Source: a virus
Virus record (IMG/VR): IMGVR_UViG_3300048694_000753
Location: 1-22,965 of that record
DNA: 22,965 nucleotides
Reading direction: 5' to 3' (one strand)
Within the stretch, counting starts at the first letter, position 1. Every line of letters begins with the position of its first letter. This document shows positions 10,711-22,036 of this stretch, piece by piece. The position numbers and the translations under genes were made by a program. The notes below the pieces were generated by a model. The model was given only the letters and a program-made list of their open reading frames with translations. It had not been told where the DNA came from and made no database searches.

Positions 10711-10991
10711 CTCATCTCCTTCTTTTTGATGCCAGCGGCTTTGCGCAGATCGCTTGAGTGCAACTTTTTGACTGGCTTTTTGATTTCATGTGCAGCCAAC
10801 GCTATCTTGGCAGCTTTCTTGCGTGATACAAACTTGCCCTCATTGGTCACAAACCCACGCTTGGCGTTTTTGTCTTTGACGCCCTTAGCCAATTCAATCT
10901 CTTCATGGCTCCATGCTTTGCTGGGTGCGGGGTCAACTTTGCCGCCTTTCTCTTTAATGGCGGGTTCAGCGATGGTCAGTTTCTTTTTCAT
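10707..10991 (-). CDS. Small lysine-rich phage protein, 94 aa
   Basis: I place the start at 10991, 7 nt after GGAG; the frame is open to 11048 but those codons overlap the PPK2 gene. It contains KRGFVTNEGKFVSRKKAAKIA, resembling a motif (GFVT..G.FV.R..AA.IA) seen in small phage proteins of unknown job. Highly basic, so nucleic acid contact is possible. Overlaps the end of PPK2 by 26 nt. Confidence 0.75.
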   Translation of the reverse strand: MKKKLTIAEPAIKEKGGKVDPAPSKAWSHEEIELAKGVKDKNAKRGFVTNEGKFVSRKKAAKIALAAHEIKKPVKKLHSSDLRKAAGIKKKEMR

Positions 10992-11682
10992 AATGGCTCC
11001 ACAAAATGTCGGGGTCAATTTTCCCGATGGCTTCCACATCTTTGCCAAGGTAGTCGTTGTTCAAGAGGACATACTGCATGGCGGCGATTCGGGCTTTGGT
11101 CTTGTCGTTTGAGTCGATCACAATCCAGTCGGGTGTGAAGTTAAGCATGACTGCGTACATGGATTCGTACGCTTCCCACTTAGACTGGCTGACCAAGTCC
11201 ACAGCACTCATTTTGCCCACTTTTAGGGGGCTTGTCTGCCTGCTGTCGAACCTCTTGGCTTGCTCTTCTTTGGTGATGCTGAAGAAGAACTTAGTAAGTT
11301 TGATACCAGCTTTTTTGAACACCGGCTCCAGCTCCCTGCACTCCTGCAAAAAGTGAGCAGTTTCATCCCTAGTACAGAACCCCATGACAGGCTCTACTCC
11401 TGCACGGTTGTACCAGCTACGATCAAAAAAACAAATCTCCCCTGCCTTTGGGAATTGGTTGATGTATCTCTGCCAATACCACTGTTTGGCTTCCAGCTCG
11501 GTAGGCTTGTCAAGGGCCACCACTCGGGCGTACCGGGGGTTCAGATGCTCCATGAACCTTTTAATGCACCCTGATTTACCTGCGGCATCCACCCCCTCAA
11601 AGAGGATGATGTGCTGGGTCTTTTGCTCACGAACAAAGTGTTGCCACTTGAGCAGTTCAACTTGTAAGGCGGTGAGGTTCAT
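10966..11682 (-). CDS. Polyphosphate kinase 2 (PPK2) family nucleotide kinase, 238 aa
   Basis: PPK2 enzymes move phosphate between polyphosphate and nucleotides. Visible motifs: Walker A FEGVDAAGKSG (28-38, D32 and K36), Walker B-like CFFDRSWYNRAGVEPVMGFC (84-103), and the lid/signature region with TSPLKVGKMSAVDL (150-163) followed by SKWEAYESMY. The order and spacing fit PPK2, not thymidylate or shikimate kinase. At 238 residues it lacks most of the N-terminal extension of typical 260-300-residue enzymes. The ATG overlaps the upstream stop (ATGA); context is the DNA-synthesis unit. A plausible role is regenerating NDP/NTP from host polyphosphate during infection. The subclass (NMP or NDP acceptor) cannot be read. 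Confidence 0.9.
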   Translation of the reverse strand: MNLTALQVELLKWQHFVREQKTQHIILFEGVDAAGKSGCIKRFMEHLNPRYARVVALDKPTELEAKQWYWQRYINQFPKAGEICFFDRSWYNRAGVEPVMGFCTRDETAHFLQECRELEPVFKKAGIKLTKFFFSITKEEQAKRFDSRQTSPLKVGKMSAVDLVSQSKWEAYESMYAVMLNFTPDWIVIDSNDKTKARIAAMQYVLLNNDYLGKDVEAIGKIDPDILWSHYEKETDHR

Positions 11683-13334: not shown

Positions 13335-13634
13335 TCATAGTTGTCGCTCGCCGACCAACTTGGACAGCGATTCCAACAACGAGACATTGTCTTCATCGAC
13401 AACGATTGCAAAACCGCCAGCGACATTGATGCGCTCGATCTCCCTGAGTTGCAATGCAGTCGGGCGTCCCCCGTTGGCCTTGCACTCAATAGCAAAGAAT
13501 ACACCGTTAAGGCATCCAACAATATCGGGTACACCACTACGACCATAGCCACCAGTCGCAGGCATGAAGTAGTACGCACCAATGGACTCAAGGATGCGCT
13601 TGGCTCTCTCTTTGACTTTGCCCTCTGGGGTCAT
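13335..13634 (-). CDS. VRR-NUC domain nuclease, 99 aa
   Basis: A minimal VRR-NUC nuclease of the PD-(D/E)XK fold, the kind that resolves or cleaves branched DNA. Signature parts are an N-terminal helix (VKERAKRILESIGAYYF), GRSGVPDIVGCLNGVFFAIECKA (D of GxPDI and the E-x-K pair) and the helix PTALQLREIERINVAGG, followed by FAIVVDE. These match the stand-alone phage version in length and order. GGAG 7 nt upstream; the start overlaps the upstream stop (ATGA). Its place at the head of the replication unit supports a junction- or fork-processing role. Confidence 0.92.
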   Translation of the reverse strand: MTPEGKVKERAKRILESIGAYYFMPATGGYGRSGVPDIVGCLNGVFFAIECKANGGRPTALQLREIERINVAGGFAIVVDEDNVSLLESLSKLVGERQL

Positions 13635-13906: not shown

Positions 13907-13933
13907 GACAAGATGACTAAACGTCAGTATGTC
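13907..13933 (-). promoter_or_regulatory. 27-bp palindrome, copy A
   Basis: Minus-strand half-sites GACATACTGAC and GTCATCTTGTC around GTTTA. Lies between the last L1 gene and terminator 1, about 40 bp upstream of the L2 promoter -35. One of six copies with the outer GACA/TGTC and inner TGAC/GTCA blocks conserved. Confidence 0.7.
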
Positions 13934-13939
13934 GTGGTA

Positions 13940-14836
13940 TCAGCAGTCTGTATAAGTCTCACCCTCTATGAGGAAGAAGTACTTGTACTCAATTCGCAAG
14001 CGATGGTCATGGGTTGATTCCTCAAACCACACGCCAACATGCTCGATGGGCTGATACTCCTCCATAAGTTTTAGCATGGTGATTTTTTCTTGGTAGTTTG
14101 TTGGCAAATCGTAGGTCGATTTATGTTCGACAAACTCTTTGGTCGTAAGGTCGTAGGTAGCAAGCGCACCGTCTGTCTCTATGCGGATACACACACCCCG
14201 ATTACCAACAAACGCCTTGGTCACTGCCTTAGCAATGCGGTAGTCATTCAGCTTGTCTTTCCACTCACGCCCAAGACTTGTAAGCAAATCTTTGGGGAGC
14301 TTTGCAGGCTTAGGGTCTAGCGCATCGTACGAGTCTAGGAAAGTAAGTATCTCGGACGATGAACCCCTCACCACACTGTCGGCATTGCTATGGGCGTTTT
14401 GCACCATGCGTTGCAGTCTGTGTTGCACCGAGGATTCCATATCCTTTGCCCGCTTGTCCATAGGCTTGACTTTGAAATACTCTTTGACAGTCTTCATAGC
14501 AAGTTTCAGATGCTTGGTTTGATGCTCTGGGTGACGCTTGTGTTCGATAGCGTCGCTGACCACTACATACAACTCCGTTGCATTGCTACTACGATACCCG
14601 TTGTTGATAGCCAAAGAACCGACAGGCTGATTGCCACACATCACCGCAACCTTACTGATGCGTTCACCGTCGCCCCACCCATTGGTGTCGGTAGCAATGT
14701 ACTGAAAGTCTGGGAAAGCGAAAGCCACCTCGGACATAAACTCCACCAGTTTTTTGTTGAAAAACTTTTGAGGGTACTTGCCCGTCTTGACTTTGCCCTT
14801 GAGGATTTCGGGCAGGTTTTCAAGTTTGATTGTCAT
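13940..14836 (-). CDS. Unknown protein, 298 aa
   Basis: Start at 14836 follows AAGGA with 7 nt spacing; 16 bp from the DUF3150-like stop. Segments visible: KTGKYPQKFFNKKLVEF, IATDTNGWGDGERISKV, a basic helix HRLQRMVQNAHSNADSV and a C-terminal acidic region ending FFLIEGETYTDC. No fold is recognised. Its place as last gene of the AAA+/VWA unit suggests a partner in that process. It is followed by palindrome A and the terminator. Confidence 0.82.
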   Translation of the reverse strand: MTIKLENLPEILKGKVKTGKYPQKFFNKKLVEFMSEVAFAFPDFQYIATDTNGWGDGERISKVAVMCGNQPVGSLAINNGYRSSNATELYVVVSDAIEHKRHPEHQTKHLKLAMKTVKEYFKVKPMDKRAKDMESSVQHRLQRMVQNAHSNADSVVRGSSSEILTFLDSYDALDPKPAKLPKDLLTSLGREWKDKLNDYRIAKAVTKAFVGNRGVCIRIETDGALATYDLTTKEFVEHKSTYDLPTNYQEKITMLKLMEEYQPIEHVGVWFEESTHDHRLRIEYKYFFLIEGETYTDC

Positions 14837-14852
14837 GTTGCTTCCTTTCAAA

Positions 14853-15731
14853 TTACCAAGAGTACTTGTTGAGAATGGCGTCGACCTTGTTCTTGACGGT
14901 TTCACGAACATAGTCACTGTCTTTGATGGTATCGGTGTCGGCGTTGGTCATTGCCAACTCCAAGTCACGCCGTGCCTCTTCCAACTTGGGGTCGTTGGTC
15001 ACATTGAGTCGACGCAACAAGCCGATCATTTCTCTGGCGTTTGTGATCAGCGTACCGTGAAACACTTTGCGGTTGCCTTCGTCGTCGTTTGCCAAACGCT
15101 CACTCATGTGTGACAAGCACTCATGCAGTCGGCCCCACACATCACGCATAGCGGTGTTGAGTCGCTCGTTGAAGTGTTCCTCGTAGTGTTGCACCAACTC
15201 GGCTTTGACTTGTTCGCCTATGTCGATACGGAAGTCACCCGATGTAGGCAGTGGCATGAGCGTGTATTGAAATTTGAATTTCTTTTCCACGGCATCAGGC
15301 TCGGGGTACTCATCACGATCAAACAAATCACCCAGTTGAAAGGCTGCTGCTGATATCAGCGTAGGGTAGACCTGAATGAAGTTGCTGGCAAGGCGTTCGA
15401 ATTCAACCTTGTGGTCGTCGAGTTGCGCTTTGTAGCCACCATTGAACAGGTTCTCCATCGTCACGATGCGACCACCGCTATCAGACCAAGGGATAGTCTG
15501 CTTGGTATTCCACAAGCGAACCTTAGCAGCGTACTTGTTGACGGCTTCCAAGTGTGGGTTGCCTGCAAGCAAATGCTTGTGGTAGTTGCCTGCTTTGACC
15601 TTGGTGTTCTTGGCTTGGTCGACTTCCTCGGAAACTTTCTTGTCCAGTTTGCGGGCAGTCCAGCAAGAGATGTTGAGCTCGACGAGCATGCTTGATGTTG
15701 CAATGCCCAATGAATTGAATTGGTTTTCCAT
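14853..15731 (-). CDS. DUF3150-like protein, 292 aa
   Basis: Resembles DUF3150 proteins of phages and bacteria: an N-terminal LVELNISCWTARKLDKKVS, a central NFIQVYPTLISAAAFQLG with DLFDRDEYPEPDAVEKKF, and PLPTSGDFRIDIG, then long helices. The family is of unknown function and often lies beside MoxR/CobS-like ATPases and VWA proteins, as here. GGAG lies 8 nt before the ATG. Palindrome B ends 25 bp upstream. Family call is from remembered pattern only, so moderate; the gene itself is certain. Confidence 0.82.
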   Translation of the reverse strand: MENQFNSLGIATSSMLVELNISCWTARKLDKKVSEEVDQAKNTKVKAGNYHKHLLAGNPHLEAVNKYAAKVRLWNTKQTIPWSDSGGRIVTMENLFNGGYKAQLDDHKVEFERLASNFIQVYPTLISAAAFQLGDLFDRDEYPEPDAVEKKFKFQYTLMPLPTSGDFRIDIGEQVKAELVQHYEEHFNERLNTAMRDVWGRLHECLSHMSERLANDDEGNRKVFHGTLITNAREMIGLLRRLNVTNDPKLEEARRDLELAMTNADTDTIKDSDYVRETVKNKVDAILNKYSW

Positions 15732-15744
15732 GTTGCTTCTCCAG

Positions 15745-15990
15745 TTATTGACTATCGACAGAATGACCAGTGGTCACTTTGTCGCCGTTGTTAGCAGAGT
15801 ATTCGCTGATCAAATACTCCACAAGTTGTGCAAGCGAAGGCTCAAAGCCAATCCTCCTCTCAAGTTTGCCTTGCAACGCACGAAGTTGATCACCCGCATC
15901 GGGCGACAGGCTGAGGGTCAGGCGCTTACGCACCGTGTTGCCCTCGGCTCCAAAGATATCCATTGTTTTGTTATCTACATCCTGTTTCAT
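15745..15990 (-). CDS. Putative ribbon-helix-helix-like small protein, 81 aa
   Basis: Start at 15990 has GGAGG 5 nt upstream and overlaps the VWA stop (ATGA). Residues ~20-32 (VRKRLTLSLSPDA) could be the beta strand of a ribbon-helix-helix domain, followed by helices GDQLRALQGKLERR and LAQLVEYLISEYS. RHH repressors bind short palindromes as dimers, and copy B of the 27-bp palindrome lies inside its own 3' end, so it is a candidate binder. That link is inference; a non-regulatory role is possible. Confidence 0.75.
   Translation of the reverse strand: MKQDVDNKTMDIFGAEGNTVRKRLTLSLSPDAGDQLRALQGKLERRIGFEPSLAQLVEYLISEYSANNGDKVTTGHSVDSQ
15757..15783 (-). promoter_or_regulatory. 27-bp palindrome, copy B
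   Basis: Minus-strand half-sites GACAAAGTGAC and GTCATTCTGTC around CACTG. It overlaps the 3' end of the RHH-like gene and ends 25 bp before the DUF3150-like start. Confidence 0.7.
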
Positions 15991-17267
15991 ATCCCCTCCA
16001 CCATCACGCTTTGGCCTACGGTCGGGTTGAATCGGTTGTTTCCATACACGCACCACAAGACAGGTGCGTTCACGCCTGCCCAGTTACCGCACCCATCGCC
16101 ATAGAAGTAGCCGTCGGTGAGCATGATCACGCATTGCGGTTCGATCTGTTCCTTGATCATGTACTCTGGTACACAACCGGGCTCAGTCCCGCCACCACCG
16201 GCCGGTCGAGTAACATCAGTGATCTTGGCTACATCGCTACCGAGATAGGTCTCACGCCTTGCAACATGGGAGTCCCAGTAAAGCAATTCGATGCGCTCGG
16301 GTGCAACTTCATCACAAATGCTCTTGACTTCTCCAAGAAACTGTGCAAGCGCATATCCACCAATCGAACCTGATGTGTCGATACCAAGAACAAACATCTC
16401 AGCCTTCTGGCTTTGCGTGGTCGGCATCACGATATCAACGCCCAAGAACCTGCGGTTGGGGCGACGCCATGTAGACTGGTCGCCTCCCTTGGTTGCTAGT
16501 TTGATGAAGTCACGCAGGGCTTCACGCCAGTCAACCTTGGGATGCAAGAGTTGGTCGATATCACGATTGACATTGCCTTTCATGCGTCCTGCTAGCATCG
16601 CACCCTCACGCAGGGCTGAGTCGATCTCACGGTTGAGTTCTTCCTTTTCTTCCTCGCTCATATCCTTGGCGTCGTCCCAGTCGTGCTCGTCAAAGGATTG
16701 GTCGGGACATGATGACCCTCCGTCATTTTGTCCAGAGGAGTGACCGTTACCGCCCTGCCCCTCGGTTTCATCGCCGTCACCCTCGCCCTCGCCTTCGGAG
16801 CCACCGCCACCGCCTTCCTCCATGAGGATGTTGAATACCTGCTTGGTATCCATACCACGGAAACGCTCGTCGTACAGACCCATGAGCTCACCAGTCTCTG
16901 GGTTGCGTGGCATGGACACATCCTCTTCGTACGGATCAGCGTCCCGAATCTGTAGGTTGATAACATAATCCATGGCATAGTTGGCTAGCTTGCGGTTGAT
17001 CTTGGCAATGTCTGCCCAGATGGTCATGTGCCGATACGCCTTGTGCATAGCCTCATGCACAATCAGAAAGCCAAGTGCCTTGTCTGATAGCATACCCACA
17101 AACTCTCGCCCGTAGGTCACATCACGACCATTGGTCGATGCGCTTGGGTGCTTGTCGCTCACAGTCACTTTGCCTACCATGAACACACCCGCAAACTGAC
17201 AAAAGCGTGGGCTTTGCATCAGTTGAATGTGGGCTCTCTCGACCCGTTGTTCAGCAGTTAAGTTCAT
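15987..17267 (-). CDS. VWA-domain protein with putative metallopeptidase head, 426 aa
   Basis: The N-terminal ~140 residues look like the DUF2201-type putative metallopeptidase region: LGFLIVHEAMHKAYRH (H71, E72, H75), a zinc-binding HExxH. A Gly/Glu/Asp low-complexity linker follows (~151-187). The C-terminal domain is a von Willebrand A type fold with a MIDAS: D297TSGS301, a GGGGT turn (T361) and TDG (D385). VWA proteins pair with MoxR AAA+ ATPases, as encoded ~900 bp upstream. Often named CobT-like in phages, but cobalamin synthesis is unlikely. AGGA 7 nt before the ATG at 17267. Confidence 0.9.
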   Translation of the reverse strand: MNLTAEQRVERAHIQLMQSPRFCQFAGVFMVGKVTVSDKHPSASTNGRDVTYGREFVGMLSDKALGFLIVHEAMHKAYRHMTIWADIAKINRKLANYAMDYVINLQIRDADPYEEDVSMPRNPETGELMGLYDERFRGMDTKQVFNILMEEGGGGGSEGEGEGDGDETEGQGGNGHSSGQNDGGSSCPDQSFDEHDWDDAKDMSEEEKEELNREIDSALREGAMLAGRMKGNVNRDIDQLLHPKVDWREALRDFIKLATKGGDQSTWRRPNRRFLGVDIVMPTTQSQKAEMFVLGIDTSGSIGGYALAQFLGEVKSICDEVAPERIELLYWDSHVARRETYLGSDVAKITDVTRPAGGGGTEPGCVPEYMIKEQIEPQCVIMLTDGYFYGDGCGNWAGVNAPVLWCVYGNNRFNPTVGQSVMVEGI

Positions 17268-17404
17268 TTGCTTTTCCTCTCGATCAGTTGATACAACTCT
17301 TTTGCTTTCTGGATATGCTTTGCCATGGACTCTTCAGTCCATAGCACCGATGGGTTGACTCGGCTTGCAAGTAGCCAAGCGTAGATAAAGTCCTTCTCAG
17401 TCAT
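17264..17404 (-). CDS. Small helical protein, 46 aa
   Basis: A strong GGAGG with 5-nt spacing precedes the ATG at 17404; the stop overlaps the VWA start (ATGA). It reads MTEKDFIYAWLLASRV and EESMAKHIQKAKELYQLIE. Overlaps the upstream gene by 8 nt. No known function. Confidence 0.75.
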   Translation of the reverse strand: MTEKDFIYAWLLASRVNPSVLWTEESMAKHIQKAKELYQLIERKSK

Positions 17405-17669
17405 TTAATCCTCCGTGGCTTTTGATTGCAGACTGGAAAGTGTCGTAGTGTGCGCTCACGGATTCGACAACCATTGAGACAAACTGACGCTTGGTCACTG
17501 TGTCGTAGTGGTTCAGTTGCACACCACCGTAGGCAACGGCACGGCACAGGGCGTGCATCGTCACATTCATCCCGTTATCGTTCTTGCCAAGCAAGTCGAC
17601 AATCGCTTCGAACAAGTCGTGCATCTCTGCTTGTTGTTCGGGGTCAAGTATTTCACGCTTCTCTTCCAT
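17397..17669 (-). CDS. Unknown protein, 90 aa
   Basis: Start at 17669 gives the best spacing (6 nt) from GGAG; an ATG at 17672 (ATGA overlap) and one at 17681 are alternatives. Reads EILDPEQQAEMHDLFEAIVD, then NVTMHALCRAVAYGGVQL and an amphipathic QFVSMVVESVSAHYDTF. No motif is recognised. Confidence 0.75.
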   Translation of the reverse strand: MEEKREILDPEQQAEMHDLFEAIVDLLGKNDNGMNVTMHALCRAVAYGGVQLNHYDTVTKRQFVSMVVESVSAHYDTFQSAIKSHGGLND

Positions 17670-17758
17670 CATGGTCTCCATACAAGAATATCAAGTAACA
17701 CAACGATGAGGGCCAGCAAGAACACCACCCTCATCACCTTCTCTTCATTGGTCAGCAT
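17669..17758 (-). CDS. Tiny single-pass membrane protein, 29 aa
   Basis: Reads MLTNEEKVMRVVFLLALIVV then LLDILVWRP: a charged N-tail and one strongly hydrophobic helix. GGAGG lies 6 nt before the ATG at 17758. It overlaps the upstream gene by 14 nt and the next start. Predicted inner-membrane; role unknown. Confidence 0.65.
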   Translation of the reverse strand: MLTNEEKVMRVVFLLALIVVLLDILVWRP

Positions 17759-17873
17759 TGTCATCCTCCTCTTGAACAGCGAAACGCAAGAACCTTGCGC
17801 CTTCGAAAATCTCCACAACTTCGTACTCAATCCCCATGCGATCAAGTGCTTCGTACAGTTCGTGTGCAGTCAT
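17745..17873 (-). CDS. Small acidic protein, 42 aa
   Basis: Preceded by a strong GGAGGTGA. Reads MTAHELYEALDRMGIEYEVV and FEGARFLRFAVQEEDDNADQ, an alternation of helix and strand suggestive of a small folded protein with an acidic tail. The same ribosome-site sequence (GGTGAAGC) precedes the next gene upstream. Function unknown. Confidence 0.7.
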   Translation of the reverse strand: MTAHELYEALDRMGIEYEVVEIFEGARFLRFAVQEEDDNADQ

Positions 17874-17885
17874 GCTTCACCTCCA

Positions 17886-18140
17886 TCAAAGTGTGCAATA
17901 CCATTTGTTTTCTGATATGCGTTTGGTTTTGAGTTTGGCTTTTTTGATTTGGCGCAGGTGCGAGTTGAAAGCCTTGACTTCTACGCAGTCGTGCAAGCCA
18001 CGCACTCGGTCGCTCTCGATGATGACAAACCCACGATGCACAAGGATTGCGTAGAGCGCATCCCAGTCATACGCTACCTTCGTAGGTATGGGCGTGGGCG
18101 ACGCAACGAAAGCATCCGATGGAATTTCACTTAGTCTCAT
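17886..18140 (-). CDS. Small basic protein, 84 aa
   Basis: GAGGTGAAGC precedes the ATG at 18140. Contains VAYDWDALYAILVHRGFVII and a basic tail with SHLRQIKKAKLKTKRI. The VHRGFVIIESD...VEVKAFNSHLRQIK pattern could be a small nucleic-acid-binding protein, but no family is recognised. Lies 8 bp downstream of the AAA+ gene stop. Confidence 0.78.
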   Translation of the reverse strand: MRLSEIPSDAFVASPTPIPTKVAYDWDALYAILVHRGFVIIESDRVRGLHDCVEVKAFNSHLRQIKKAKLKTKRISENKWYCTL

Positions 18141-18148
18141 GCTTCACC

Positions 18149-19240
18149 TCAGAACAAGTATTGGTTGTCACGCATCCAAGTGACGAACGAGCCGCTGGTC
18201 ATCATGATCTTTTTCTTCTCAGGGTGCTTTGCACCAGACAAGCAGAACACTGATTGCAACTCTTTGGGAGTGCGACGCAGGTACTCGAACCACGGTCCGA
18301 TGGTTGCACGATCAATCCGTTGCAGAGCACCGAAAGCCATGATGTTCAAAGCAGCGGGCGATGACGGCAGTTTTGCACCCTTGGGGTCGTCGATCACCTC
18401 TTGCCAACTCGGCAGGGAGTCGGATACCTCCACATACGCCACCATGTCCCGCGCAGCGCTCTCACCAATCGTTCCTGATAGTGAAGTAATGAGAGCATTG
18501 CGTGTGAGCTTGTCACGACGCTTGATGATGTTGCTTGCCCGAGCGAGTGAGCGTGGGCTTACATACGAGCGTTGTGCGTTCTTGGGGTTGAAGATGTAGT
18601 GGTTCTCCGCTTGGGTCGGGTCTTTGTACGATGCAAGTGCATGCGGGTAGGCTTTCACCCACGCCACAACTTCCTCTGCAATGTCGTTCTTGATTGCCCA
18701 CATACCCCATGAGTCCTCATCAACACTGCCGTCGGCATTGAACCCAGCGTGTGGTTTCTGGATAGGAACAATGGTCAGTCGGTTGATCGAGTGAGCCTTT
18801 AGCAAGTCGCCCACACCATCGGTTGTGTTGTTGCCTGCGGTGATAACGAGAGTCTCGGGGTGTTGCTGGAATCCGCCGATGCGCCTCTCATTGAGCAAGG
18901 GATGCAACATGTTTTGCACCGCTTGGGATGAGGGCTTGGTGAATTCGTCAATGAAGATCACCAGTGGTTCGCCAGTATGGAAACCCCAGTGGTCGTTGGG
19001 GTAAAGCGATGTGGTCTTGGTCTCATGGTTGGGCATGGGGATGCCAATGTCACCCAGCTCGGTGTTGGGTGTGTCGATGTACACGCCACGAAAGCCTGTG
19101 CGCTCTACGATACGCTCGTACATAGCCGTCTTGCCCACGCCCGGCTCACCTACCAGATGTACCGCATTGGTGCTACCAACGGCAATGATGAGCTCCTCAG
19201 CTTCGTTGAGGGTGATCTCGGTGTTCAGTCTAACTTCCAT
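18149..19240 (-). CDS. MoxR/CobS-like AAA+ ATPase, 363 aa
   Basis: A ring-forming AAA+ ATPase of the MoxR/CobS type. Walker A is GEPGVGKT (31-38), Walker B IFIDEF (95-100) and sensor 1 TAGNNTTDG (135-142). The region EFTKPSSQAVQNMLHPLLNE between them is typical of MoxR-type ATPases. These work with VWA proteins, using ATP to remodel targets (as in RavA-ViaA, CbbQ-CbbO, NorQ-NorD). The gene for the VWA partner lies downstream in the same unit. Start at 19240 is chosen by AGGA 8 nt upstream; a longer frame to 19279 runs into palindrome C and lacks a site. Confidence 0.93.
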   Translation of the reverse strand: MEVRLNTEITLNEAEELIIAVGSTNAVHLVGEPGVGKTAMYERIVERTGFRGVYIDTPNTELGDIGIPMPNHETKTTSLYPNDHWGFHTGEPLVIFIDEFTKPSSQAVQNMLHPLLNERRIGGFQQHPETLVITAGNNTTDGVGDLLKAHSINRLTIVPIQKPHAGFNADGSVDEDSWGMWAIKNDIAEEVVAWVKAYPHALASYKDPTQAENHYIFNPKNAQRSYVSPRSLARASNIIKRRDKLTRNALITSLSGTIGESAARDMVAYVEVSDSLPSWQEVIDDPKGAKLPSSPAALNIMAFGALQRIDRATIGPWFEYLRRTPKELQSVFCLSGAKHPEKKKIMMTSGSFVTWMRDNQYLF

Positions 19241-19274
19241 TTTGGTTTCCTTTGTAGTTGCAGAGTATTGAGAC

Positions 19275-19301
19275 GACAAGATGACTGTTAGTCACTTTGT
19301 C
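19275..19301 (-). promoter_or_regulatory. 27-bp palindrome, copy C
   Basis: Minus-strand half-sites GACAAAGTGAC and GTCATCTTGTC around TAACA. It overlaps the stop of the 70-residue gene and ends 34 bp before the AAA+ start. Confidence 0.7.
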
Positions 19302-19504
19302 GCAGGGTTGATGGGGGTTGTGGTGATCGGGTCAAAGTCCTCCAAGTCTTTGCCGTGTTGAATGTCGTTGTATCTTGCTATCTCCATATCAAGTTCCTCC
19401 ATGTTTGCGGTTGATAATGCTTTTTGCTTCGCCGTGCTGTGTTTTCCAGCATTGCGATTTGGGTTATTGATCAGTTCCCTTACAACAGGATTACGGGGTT
19501 TCAT
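19292..19504 (-). CDS. Unknown small protein, 70 aa
   Basis: GGAGG lies 7-8 nt before the ATG; both it and the preceding gene share an ATGA overlap. Reads KPRNPVVRELINNPNRNAGK, then KQKALSTANMEELDMEIARY, Asn/Lys-rich then acidic. The HSTAKQKA context resembles small nucleic-acid-associated phage proteins, but no family is claimed. Confidence 0.75.
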   Translation of the reverse strand: MKPRNPVVRELINNPNRNAGKHSTAKQKALSTANMEELDMEIARYNDIQHGKDLEDFDPITTTPINPATK

Positions 19505-19689
19505 TGCCGTGCCTCCCGCATAGCCGCTTCGGTCTGCGCCACGAGATCGTTGCGAGCCTCTTCGTTGGTGAGTATCAAATGGATGAAGTGCTTGGCGCTT
19601 TTGAGTTGTGCACCCAAGTGCAATGCGTATGCGGTCGCAAGCATGCCCCAGATGAACAGGGCGATTTCGGTGATGCTGATTTCGATCAT
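19501..19689 (-). CDS. Small membrane-anchored protein, 62 aa
   Basis: Start at 19689 after GGAGG (7 nt), overlapping the upstream stop (ATGA). Hydrophobic N-terminal helix (ISITEIALFIWGMLATAYAL), then a basic-to-acidic helix with KHFIHLILTNEEARNDLVAQ. Single-pass with the C-terminus likely cytoplasmic. Role unknown. Confidence 0.75.
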   Translation of the reverse strand: MIEISITEIALFIWGMLATAYALHLGAQLKSAKHFIHLILTNEEARNDLVAQTEAAMREARQ

Positions 19690-19907
19690 TTCGTTTCCTC
19701 CATAAGTTGTTCCAAGTCGTGCTTCATACCAAGCACCCAAACCTCCAAGTCGTTGGCTGCTTCGGCATCGCCCACCTGACGCATGGCATGAGCGAGGTGC
19801 ATCCCTGCGGTGTAGAGCGTGTTGAGCTTCGCTACCGTGATAGCAGGGCGTTGAGTTGTGACGACATCCTGACTGTCTGTCATTGTGTCGTGTGCTAGTT
19901 CGATCAT
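19686..19907 (-). CDS. Unknown helical protein, 73 aa
   Basis: Start at 19907 has AAGGAG upstream (8 nt) and overlaps the Zn-protein stop (ATGA). Contains VVTTQRPAITVAKLNTLYTA and MRQVGDAEAANDLEVWVLGM, mainly helical. The open frame upstream to 20102 overlaps the Zn-protein gene and is not used. No function. Confidence 0.75.
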   Translation of the reverse strand: MIELAHDTMTDSQDVVTTQRPAITVAKLNTLYTAGMHLAHAMRQVGDAEAANDLEVWVLGMKHDLEQLMEETK

Positions 19908-20146
19908 GTCCGTATCTCCTTCTGGTTGGTTTGTTTCAGCGTGGTCGGTGCAGTCGTGGGGGTGACGAACATGTACCCGCCCTTTCCATACTCTTGTACC
20001 ACAGTCCACGATCTGCGTAGCAGGCGAGCGTTCTCTTCCCCGCAACCCTTGCAGATGAGATGCCCATACTGAGCCCGTTTCTTGCCGATGCCGTTGTTGC
20101 ATCCTGCTGTTTGGCAGTAGCCGTTTCTGTATCTTGTGTATGACAT
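19904..20146 (-). CDS. Small zinc-ribbon-like protein, 80 aa
   Basis: Start at 20146 after AAGG. Cysteines CQTAGC and CKGC (C11, C16, C33, C36) suggest a small zinc ribbon, with YRNGY before and a Tyr/Val-rich WTVVQEYGKGG after. Likely a nucleic-acid or protein-binding adaptor; no family match. Coupled to the next gene (ATGA). Confidence 0.75.
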   Translation of the reverse strand: MSYTRYRNGYCQTAGCNNGIGKKRAQYGHLICKGCGEENARLLRRSWTVVQEYGKGGYMFVTPTTAPTTLKQTNQKEIRT

Positions 20147-20156
20147 TGTTTGCCTT

Positions 20157-20402
20157 TCAGTTGGGAGTTGACCATGCGTGGATGCGTTGGATGGTGGGGT
20201 CGGTGGACCTGCTGACGCACCAGTTGGTTTTGATACCACGGTATCCAGACTCATAGTCCTCTCGCACGCCGTATGCCATGCCTTCGATGAGGTGCAAGGG
20301 CTTGCGGAACAACTCGTTCCAGTTGCGGTCAAAGGCAATGATGATAGGGTTTGCTACGCTAGTAGGTTGGTGTGTTGCGTTGTTTGCTGATCTGATTTGC
20401 AT
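20157..20402 (-). CDS. First gene of L1, unknown, 81 aa
   Basis: Start at 20402 is preceded by GGAG (6 nt) and, 25 bp upstream, by palindrome D. Contains PIIIAFDRNWNELFRKPLHL and EGMAYGVREDYESGYRGIKT. The leader from the L1 promoter is ~105 nt. No known domain. Confidence 0.75.
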   Translation of the reverse strand: MQIRSANNATHQPTSVANPIIIAFDRNWNELFRKPLHLIEGMAYGVREDYESGYRGIKTNWCVSRSTDPTIQRIHAWSTPN

Positions 20403-20427
20403 GATGGACTCCAAAGAAGAAGAAAAA

Positions 20428-20454
20428 GACATAATGACCAAACGTCATTGTGTC
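20428..20454 (-). promoter_or_regulatory. 27-bp palindrome, copy D
   Basis: Minus-strand half-sites GACACAATGAC and GTCATTATGTC around GTTTG; only the first variable base breaks the symmetry. It lies +53 to +79 in the L1 leader and ends 25 bp before the first start codon. Confidence 0.75.
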
Positions 20455-20494
20455 GCCGGACAAGCCAAGGATGAAGAAAACCCATAGGACTGCC

Positions 20495-20509
20495 CTCGCT
20501 GAAAGCGAG
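20495..20509 (-). other. Hairpin at the 5' end of the L1 leader
   Basis: Read leftward, CTCGCT and AGCGAG form a 6-bp stem with a 3-nt loop, right at the expected transcription start. No T tract follows, so it is more likely a 5'-stabilising structure than a terminator. Confidence 0.45.
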
Positions 20510-20513
20510 CCCC

Positions 20514-20542
20514 ATTATACCACTAAAGAAGTACTTTGTCAA
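20514..20542 (-). promoter_or_regulatory. Consensus sigma70 promoter of leftward unit L1
   Basis: Perfect TTGACA (20542-20537) and TATAAT (20519-20514) with the optimal 17-nt spacer on the minus strand. It drives the leftward operon that begins at 20402. Confidence 0.9.
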
Positions 20543-20546
20543 GTGC

Positions 20547-20579
20547 TTGTCTTTGCTCTCCCTATTGCAAAATTTAAAA
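20547..20579. repeat. Composite direct repeat, left copy
   Basis: TTGTCT, then after 3 nt CTCTCCCTATT, then after 4 nt AATTTAAAA. The same blocks with the same gaps recur at 21130-21162. The pair brackets the GAACAT motif region. Confidence 0.7.
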
Positions 20580-20643
20580 CGAGCGATGTTCTTTTTGTGG
20601 AGGAATGTGTGGGGAAGGATAAGTACAAAAGGAGGATAGAACA

Positions 20644-20718
20644 ATGCATAAGAGAAAGGTTTTTGTTTCAGTGAAATTTTGGGGGGTAAAAGTGGTATTA
20701 CGACTTATATTGTTCTGA
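20644..20718 (+). CDS. Possible 24-residue peptide
   Basis: ATG at 20644 follows AGGAGG by 8 nt, a strong ribosome site in otherwise non-coding DNA. The peptide is basic then hydrophobic (MHKRKVFVSVKFWGVKVVLR plus LILF). It has no rightward sigma70 promoter that I can see, and it lies on the strand opposite L1. It could be a real leader or toxic-type peptide, or chance. Confidence 0.25.
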   Translation: MHKRKVFVSVKFWGVKVVLRLILF

Positions 20719-20766
20719 AAAAGTAAAAAATTCGAACATTAGGACGAAAAATTCGAACATTCGTAA

Positions 20767-20820
20767 GTTATTGATTTATAAGGGATTCATATATATATTT
20801 TGCTTAAATAATAATCAATG
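20767..20820. other. AT-rich tract, possible DNA unwinding element
   Basis: About 85% A+T, with ATATATATAT and TTAAATAATAAT stretches, between groups of GAACAT motifs. This is a usual companion of iteron-type origins. The unwinding role is inference. Confidence 0.4.
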
Positions 20821-21093
20821 TTCGTTATGTTCTGGGGAACTGCGGTTTAGAGAGCGCCAGTCCAAAACGATTGGGGTTGGAGTTGCACTTGCCGAGGGGC
20901 TCGGGCGAGCATGCAAATTGAAATTCTGGTTTTTGTCAAAAAACGCTCGTACAATAGAACAATACTGAACATACCTTTAAAATCAAGGACTTACGATGTT
21001 CCGAAACTATACAATGTTCCATGGTTTTTTAGAACATTAAAAAATTGTATACAGAAAAAGGGCAAAAATGCGTGGTTTTTGTCGCTTTGCGTG

Positions 21094-21122
21094 GGGCTAC
21101 GGCGTTGAAGTGACCGTTCCCT
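21094..21122 (+). repeat. Direct repeat upstream of the first rightward gene
   Basis: GGGCT then, after 3 nt, a 21-nt block GCGTTGAAGTGACCGTTCCC plus T. The partner at 21976-22004 differs by one base in the 21-nt block. Each precedes one of the two paralogous genes. Confidence 0.7.
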
Positions 21123-21129
21123 TGCCCTT

Positions 21130-21162
21130 TTGTCTAAACTCTCCCTATTCATCAATTTAAAA
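21130..21162. repeat. Composite direct repeat, right copy
   Basis: Same blocks and gaps as 20547-20579 (TTGTCT, CTCTCCCTATT, AATTTAAAA). Copies start 583 bp apart. Confidence 0.7.
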
Positions 21163-21225
21163 GATTGGGTGATAAAAAATTCGAACATTATATGAAAAAA
21201 TTCGAACATTACAGGGTTTCCACTA

Positions 21226-21253
21226 TTGATGTGTTTTGCTATCACGCTATTGT
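21226..21253 (+). promoter_or_regulatory. Sigma70-like promoter of rightward gene R1
   Basis: TTGATG and TATTGT with a 16-nt spacer. The surrounding AGGGTTTCC...ATTG...GTTTTG block (21213-21238) is repeated at the second gene's promoter (22051-22076). The start would fall at palindrome E. Confidence 0.55.
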
Positions 21254-21258
21254 AGCCT

Positions 21259-21285
21259 GACATAATGACATGGGGTCATTATGTA
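21259..21285 (+). promoter_or_regulatory. 27-bp palindrome, copy E
   Basis: Half-sites GACATAATGAC and GTCATTATGTA around ATGGG, symmetric except for the outermost pair. It sits at the expected transcription start and ends 25 bp before the start codon at 21311. Confidence 0.75.
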
Positions 21286-21310
21286 AATGTTCACTAACTT
21301 TGGAGGAAGT

Positions 21311-21931
21311 ATGAACACAGTAGCAAATCCGGTGATGCGAGCCATCATCGAGGGAGCCGATCAGGCGGGAGAGATGTTCGCCCGATCGGAAATTGACGCA
21401 ATGGGTTCTTTGGAAGTGTACGCACGAACCCTCGGAACCGAGCCCACTTTCGAGCACTGGTCGAACTGTCGGGTTGACTGGGTGAACGCCTATGTTCGCA
21501 CCAAACCACAGGCGAAGGGCAATAGTGCCGACAAAGCTTTCGCCCGATACAAGGTTCGCTTGAATGAAGCGTTTGGTATCGAAGCACCGAAGGCCAAATC
21601 AGAGGCCGCCGAAAAGAAGGCTCAGGAAAGGGCTAAAAAGGCTCAGGAACTCGAACAACGATTCTCTGGGTACTCTGATACCGACTTGAACGGCATGCTC
21701 AAAAAAGCCTACGAAGATCAGGCGAAGAACCCGATGAAAAAATCAGCGTTATTAGGTGAACTAGAACGGGCTGTAAAACAGCGTATCAAATCGACCGAAT
21801 CAATCAATCGTGATGCGTTGAAAGCAATCAGAACCCGACTGTTCAATCTGGCGAAGGCTTGCACCGACCCTGTAAGGATTGAAGCGGCCTGTGATGTGCT
21901 CGACCCCGAGTATGAGATCAGCGTAGAGTAA
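21311..21931 (+). CDS. Rightward early protein R1, paralog of R2, 206 aa
   Basis: Start at 21311 has GGAGGA (4-5 nt). The protein contains ARTLGTEPTFEHW, RVDWVNAYV and KGNSADKAFARYKV in the N-terminal part, a Lys/Glu-rich helical middle (SEAAEKKAQERAKKAQELEQ), and a C-terminal ACTDPVRIEAACDVLD. The same blocks occur in order in R2, so this is a duplicated family. Mostly helical and charged, with no known domain. Position beside the motif cluster and expression from its own promoter and terminator suggest an early role in host takeover, regulation or replication initiation. Confidence 0.88.
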   Translation: MNTVANPVMRAIIEGADQAGEMFARSEIDAMGSLEVYARTLGTEPTFEHWSNCRVDWVNAYVRTKPQAKGNSADKAFARYKVRLNEAFGIEAPKAKSEAAEKKAQERAKKAQELEQRFSGYSDTDLNGMLKKAYEDQAKNPMKKSALLGELERAVKQRIKSTESINRDALKAIRTRLFNLAKACTDPVRIEAACDVLDPEYEISVE

Positions 21932-21946
21932 TCGCCAGTAACTTAG

Positions 21947-21975
21947 CCTGACGGGTAACGCCGTCAGGTTTTTTT
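21947..21975 (+). terminator. Rho-independent terminator of R1
   Basis: CCTGACGG and CCGTCAGG form an 8-bp stem with a 6-nt loop, followed by T7. It lies 15 bp after the R1 stop. Confidence 0.93.
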
Positions 21976-22004
21976 GGGCTCCCGCGTTGAAATGACCGTT
22001 CCCT
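21976..22004 (+). repeat. Direct repeat upstream of the second rightward gene
   Basis: Partner of 21094-21122: GGGCT, 3 nt, then GCGTTGAAATGACCGTTCCC plus T. It begins right after the R1 terminator and ends 5 bp before palindrome F. Confidence 0.7.
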
Positions 22005-22009
22005 GACTA

Positions 22010-22036
22010 GACATAATGACGTCTGGTCATTGTGTC
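22010..22036 (+). promoter_or_regulatory. 27-bp palindrome, copy F
   Basis: Half-sites GACATAATGAC and GTCATTGTGTC around GTCTG. Unlike copy E it lies upstream of the inferred promoter (-35 at 22065) and 104 bp before the R2 start. Confidence 0.72.

Follow-up and report, generated by a model that had tools for sequence, protein, structure and literature searches.

The freshwater phage record IMGVR_UViG_3300048694_000753 of IMG/VR, a linear sequence of 22,965 bases that is probably a fragment and is referred to as a whole as the window, carries nine copies of a 27-bp palindrome, GACANNNTGAC-N5-GTCANNNTGTC, between positions 13907 and 22036. Judged from sequence comparisons, the palindrome is almost certainly a phage-specific DNA-binding site, recognized by a regulator that the phage itself makes. 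There is a little better than an even chance that it is the operator of a phage-encoded dimeric regulator, most likely a pair of paralogous proteins termed fam7, which would repress its own expression and shut down the early operon from sites downstream of the early promoter.

Nine copies of a conserved DNA palindrome

The window was scanned with up to three mismatches tolerated over the 16 fixed positions of the palindrome, and shuffled sequence served as the control. Nine palindromes were found compared with 0.13 ± 0.39 in the shuffles, and the scan gave no further sites. An initial annotation of this DNA had reported six copies, one of them ending in TGTA. All six are located where it placed them; however, its count overlooked three exact copies (sites 3, 4 and 6 in Table 1). 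The same annotation described the element as polar, with GTCAT always on the right in the direction of the neighboring gene. The palindrome is instead plain and non-directional. Sites 3, 7 and 9 fit the polar pattern on both strands, sites 4 and 6 have GTCAG rather than GTCAT on the right in gene direction, and among 162 gene-oriented sites of relatives ATGAC occurs 22 times only in the left half and 22 times only in the right half. The spacing to start codons, 25 bp for sites 2, 7 and 8 and 34 bp for site 5, is correct for the window but is not kept in relatives, where it varies between ~ 16 and 39 bp; the 25-bp spacing thus reflects simply a leader plus a ribosome-binding site.

Among 291 distinct sites of the clade, the 16 core positions hardly vary, amounting to ~ 31 bits of conserved sequence. 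The variable pairs 5/23, 6/22, 12/16 and 13/15 show no excess pairing. Pair 7/21 is the sole variable pair that does, which is most simply explained by a clade preference at that base. The lack of compensating changes proposed earlier is therefore borne out at four of the five variable pairs. Because the stems are invariant, the loops free and compensating changes absent, the element is considered a DNA site rather than an RNA structure. An action as RNA, whether as a hairpin, a terminator or an antiterminator signal, would fit those relatives in which the sequences on either side of the copy preceding the nuclease gene complete a terminator hairpin with a T-run. It is nonetheless highly improbable, as the stem letters do not vary, four of the five variable pairs lack compensating changes, strand polarity is absent and an Rfam search of the element returned no family match. 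The fusion of site and terminator upstream of the nuclease gene occurs in several relatives (G011, G003, G001 and G004), in the form GGGGACA..TGTCCCC-T-run, and the site embedded in the terminator may constitute one element that is both operator and terminator.

The copy corresponding to site 3 is positioned ~ 40% into the VWA gene, in a variable linker. Most VWA genes of motif-bearing relatives have it at this place and in an identical codon phase, and 10 of 10 motif-free VWA genes lack it. The conservation of a copy within a variable linker indicates selection on the DNA there. Upstream of the AAA gene, 25 syntenic sites are present in relatives.

Distribution among phages and cellular genomes

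Scanning viral contigs with the 16 fixed bases identified at least 119 stretches, many of which contain three to seven exact copies within ~ 10 kb, and the multi-copy contigs encode the genes of the window. Sites were present in 36 of the 37 relatives' records examined whole, up to 11 per record, and the reversed pattern in none. This sample was picked partly by the motif, therefore relatives were picked by protein as well. Where close homologues of the DUF3150-like and AAA proteins are encoded, the locus nearly always has the motif. Distant relatives with the same two genes lack it, even in records of 62–74 kb. Most loci picked with the second fam7 paralog as the query also hold the motif, and the empty ones are mostly short on the operon side. 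In longer relatives (60–65 kb) the sites are restricted to a single region of 8–10 kb between the paralogs and a small nuclease gene. The initial annotation had named genes retained without the motif, and copies at random positions, as outcomes that would speak against a regulon; close relatives keep genes and motif together, with the copies in one region.

The inner box of the 27-bp site drifts by degrees, from TGAC through TTAC to TTNC, in records L066, L214, L215, L344, L339, L213 and L336 (the last with a TAC type), and the outer GACA/TGTC stays the same, as would be seen if every site kept pace with a regulator that changes. An 18-base version of the motif yielded 11 single hits, near chance, and no repeated copies in the GTDB genomes (84,980 species, 257 billion bases). 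With single hits only, a host regulon or a prophage origin was rejected. A literature search found no description of this motif.

Site placement and the candidate regulator

Strong promoters are predicted in the window only at 20542 and 13865. The leftward operon starts at the former (20542–20514) and ends at site 1, beside a terminator, after which the second strong promoter follows; six sites are distributed along the operon between and one is at its end. Most copies thus lie within transcription units, away from predicted promoters. Classical promoter-overlapping operators were rejected for the sites before the AAA, VWA, DUF3150, Zn-finger-like and fam10 genes, 0% of which have a -10 element just upstream. 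Among relatives with an early promoter that matches the consensus at 10–12 of 12 positions, the site is located 58–60 bases downstream of the -10 element in 14 of ~ 25 records, with the intervening sequence diverged. These sites fall downstream of the footprint of RNA polymerase at the promoter, and therefore blocking of elongation would be a more natural action than blocking of binding. As a separate observation, a G+C-rich hairpin of the GGGCTCTGCCC type tends to come first in several records in the early leader right after the -10 element (window 20455–20513 and its equivalents).

The paralog 1 promoter is weak (8 of 12 overall), and site 8 begins 5 bases past its -10 element, overlapping the expected transcription start. 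In some of the records, a -10-like hexamer precedes the corresponding site at the fam7 promoter by 3–9 bases, with hexamers at 5–7 bases in some relatives; 23% of these sites are associated with a promoter scoring at least 8 of 12, compared with 5% in shuffles. We infer fam7 binding, repression and the mode of roadblocking, as follows. The fam7 regulator would bind the palindrome sequence-specifically as a dimer and would repress its own promoter through site 8 at the transcription start. The copy 59 bases after the early -10 element would stop or slow the elongating RNA polymerase, resembling the stoperators discussed below, and the further copies within the operon would do likewise, shutting the leftward early operon.

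Two alternative functions were weighed against this placement. The regulator could be an activator or an elongation factor, or the binder could be a host protein; near-consensus promoters with sites downstream are compatible with such roles. These are unlikely, as near-consensus promoters need no activator, the cellular genomes of 84,980 species contain no repeated motif (the 18-base version, 11 single hits), and operators swap between sublineages together with phage-encoded genes. Sites that serve replication, segregation or DNA organization instead of transcription would account for the several copies that are intragenic and off promoters and for their clustering in one genome region. The fixed early-promoter distance, the sites right past the fam7 -10 boxes and the recurrent placement just upstream of genes make such functions just as improbable, if not slightly more so.

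The earlier view of a phage regulon in which a site for a DNA-binding dimer joins the AAA/VWA region and both rightward paralogs is supported, and the likeliest regulator, judging by gene distribution, is the fam7 paralog pair. Of 20 long motif-bearing records, 17 encode the family and three are truncated close to the locus; none of the 4 motif-free genomes that span the locus encodes it. No other family was both present in every long motif-bearing record extending to the locus and missing from these four genomes. The remaining widely conserved families either occur in motif-free genomes too or are not encoded in every long motif-bearing record; one of them is lacking in the window itself.

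The initial annotation had instead proposed two other binders, a ribbon-helix-helix (RHH)-like protein and a small helix-turn-helix (HTH) protein. Met-box operators of RHH repressors such as MetJ contain an 8-bp repeat of a palindromic core, and by inspection the GAC/GTC blocks of the motif recur every 8 bp, a likeness that would allow the RHH-like protein to bind the site as a tandem array. Roughly half of the motif-bearing records have its gene between the VWA and DUF3150 genes, where most motif-free ones lack it. However, many genomes that keep the site lack the gene, in which they differ from the met-box systems. Eleven long motif-bearing records, one of them of 65.6 kb and with 10 sites, encode no homologue, which led to the rejection of the RHH-like protein as a general binder. 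Moreover, one motif-free relative carries the gene, and the protein sequence, with its RHH strand, has stayed constant in those records whose inner box drifts from TGAC towards TTNC (G009, G033, G035 and L344). Binding by this protein is thus very unlikely. The small HTH protein has a predicted HTH with a recognition helix that is nearly constant among motif-bearing genomes. However, relatives that lack the motif and have other operators conserve its gene as well, for which reason it was rejected as the binder; the gene is also distant from all sites and has no site near it. We consider this protein a very improbable binder, marginally more so than the RHH-like protein.

Motif-free relatives encode a different protein of ~ 170 residues, termed f7p, at the same junction, and a de novo search of these relatives revealed other dispersed palindromes, TTTCGTAC-N-GTACGAAA, CTTCATAT-N-ATATGAAG, TTTCATAC-N-GTATGAAA and others. 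The f7p lineage contains 3–13 copies of a 17-bp palindrome, with three main types among the viral contigs L285–L316. At least three copies of one such palindrome are present in 26 of 32 viral loci found with f7p and in none of the shuffled loci, and a copy is located 108–205 bp upstream of f7p in 31 of the 32. In this lineage, promoters like the early ones above have a site downstream, mostly at 29–53 bases. Operator base 5 is predicted by a single f7p alignment column and no other (T, V or N in TAQK[TV]YLPTF), for 25 of 25 different proteins: T goes with G, and V or N goes with A. Residue and base underwent four matched changes on a tree from which that region had been left out, and two of these changes are forced by well-supported branches. 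The case for f7p as the putative regulator of the motif-free lineage is good but not conclusive. No significant match of f7p to a DNA-binding family was found, nor did a fold search of the PDB yield one. The GACA motif occurs in 0 f7p loci and the f7p palindrome in 0 GACA records; no examined locus combines the fam7/GACA system with the f7p system.

Several observations weigh against the assignment of the palindrome to fam7 and to an early-operon roadblock. The early-promoter distance is not universal and is 37 to ~ 75 bases in most other records. The association of fam7 with the motif rests on a single deep split between clades, and the motif-free genomes covering the junction number only four. 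Within the clade, the motif core shows hardly any variation with which changes in fam7 could be compared; at operator base 7 clean variation is too scarce to relate to fam7 specificity. No significant match of fam7 to a DNA-binding family or fold was identified in Pfam, PHROGs, PDB sequences, PDB folds or BFVD. The f7p correlation holds just two to four independent changes. Finally, a profile comparison of fam7 with f7p detected no homology, on which basis their homology was rejected, and for this reason f7p backs fam7 only by analogy of position.

A wider proposal is that two undescribed families of DNA-binding regulators, fam7 and f7p, either unrelated or only very remotely related, share one genomic position in a large group of integrase-free phages, each with dispersed palindromic operators of its own. 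Both would roadblock transcription just past strong promoters, and swapped operators would give immunity-like specificity among phages that do not lysogenize. It is advanced tentatively, as the chances are that it does not hold in full. No match to the integrase and resolvase families PF00589 and PF00239 was found in 16 records, which are possibly fragments and in which plasmid-type maintenance was not searched; these phages may not lysogenize.

Dispersed palindromes of other kinds occur in more distant genomes. In the cultured Rhizobium phage RHph_TM3_14A (L349, MN988472.1), GTTACCTNNNNAGGTAAC occurs 28 times in 50 kb when one mismatch is tolerated, where 0 are expected; many of these copies are located at gene boundaries and some are intragenic. 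Palindromes specific to yet other lineages, GGAATNNTACTT-N4-AAGTANNATTCC and TAAACANNTGTTTA, are present in L204/G042 and G047. A palindrome search in KPP25 found none.

The genes of the controlled operon and its neighbors are listed in Table 1. A comparison of the operon proteins with PADLOC returned no meaningful match, and a role in defense was rejected on this ground. The window also encodes a polyphosphate kinase 2 (10966–11682, minus strand; PF03976, E value 1e-72), here in a phage. The small nuclease (13335–13634, minus strand) matches weakly the Holliday junction resolvase Hjc family and is conserved throughout the group.

Table 1 Palindrome sites, predicted signals and genes in the window.
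Feature	Start	End	Strand	Location or annotation	Match to palindrome
Site 1	13907	13933	none	3' end of leftward early operon, directly before intrinsic terminator	exact
Site 2	15757	15783	none	within 3' end of RHH open reading frame, 25 bp before DUF3150-like start codon	exact
Site 3	16706	16732	none	within VWA/DUF2201 gene	exact
Site 4	17478	17504	none	within open reading frame 17397–17681	exact
Site 5	19275	19301	none	34 bp before AAA gene start codon	exact
Site 6	19863	19889	none	near start of small open reading frame	exact
Site 7	20428	20454	none	59 bases downstream of -10 of early leftward promoter	exact
Site 8	21259	21285	none	5 bases after weak -10 of paralog 1, 25 bp before start codon	one mismatch
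Site 9	22010	22036	none	between both paralog genes	exact
Early leftward promoter (predicted)	20514	20542	-	TTGACA-17-TATAAT, 12/12 sigma-70 consensus, TG before -10; equivalents in relatives	
Second leftward promoter (predicted)	13837	13865	-	TTGACA-17-TATACT, 11/12, upstream of nuclease-gene operon	
Intrinsic terminator	13882	13904	-	adjoins site 1	
fam7 paralog 1	21311	21931	+	206 residues, candidate DNA-binding regulator; all-helical model, mean predicted local distance difference test (pLDDT) 88	
fam7 paralog 2	22141	22797	+	218 residues	
AAA (MoxR-like) ATPase gene	18149	19240	-	PF07728; controlled operon	
DUF2201 metallopeptidase-VWA gene	15987	17267	-	PF13203 and PF09967; controlled operon	
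DUF3150-like gene	14853	15731	-	weak PF11348 match; annotated DUF3150 homologue in phage MinM2; controlled operon	
Last gene of early leftward operon	13940	14839	-	conserved family, function unknown	
RHH-like protein	15745	15990	-	binder proposed by initial annotation; not general	
Small HTH protein	3030	3269	-	binder proposed by initial annotation; common to motif-free relatives	

Comparison with known systems

Dispersed operators that block elongation are best known from temperate mycobacteriophages, and a similar layout is seen here in an abundant, apparently integrase-free phage group. Operator and candidate regulator are exchanged together between sister lineages while the surrounding genes stay. 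If the candidate proteins bind, they would represent new DNA-binding families with a ready-made specificity series, one f7p residue per operator base. The recurrent downstream position of the sites makes transcriptional roadblocking directly testable, and laboratory work could start from the cultured Rhizobium phage, in which the dispersed palindrome is of a third kind.

Palindromic sites scattered over the early region are also a feature of the temperate actinophage phiC31, whose conserved inverted repeats (CIRs) are bound by the phiC31 repressor. The palindrome described here differs from the CIRs in sequence, and phiC31 differs in its repressor and as a temperate phage of an actinobacterial host.

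The closest parallels are found in the cluster A mycobacteriophages such as L5 and Bxb1. Their repressor (Rep/gp71) acts on stoperators present in many copies per genome, few of them at promoters and most within transcription units off promoters, and the L5 sites are 13–14 bp long, asymmetric and oriented with transcription in phages that are temperate (PMC6550527, PMC9283540). By comparison, the site in the window is symmetric, 27 bp long, without orientation (22 vs 22) and confined to 8–10 kb; L5 is temperate, and integrase and resolvase were not found in the 16 records searched here, which are possibly fragments. The candidate regulator, in addition, has no significant match to a known repressor family. 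The two systems have in common many copies of one site per phage genome (nine in the window, up to 11 in relatives), an operator-plus-stoperator layout in which most copies lie inside transcription units, here as defined by predicted promoters, and a consensus that changes between related subclusters along with the regulator. Overall, we judge the palindrome and its candidate regulator, itself undescribed, to be a new form of a known kind of phage regulation.

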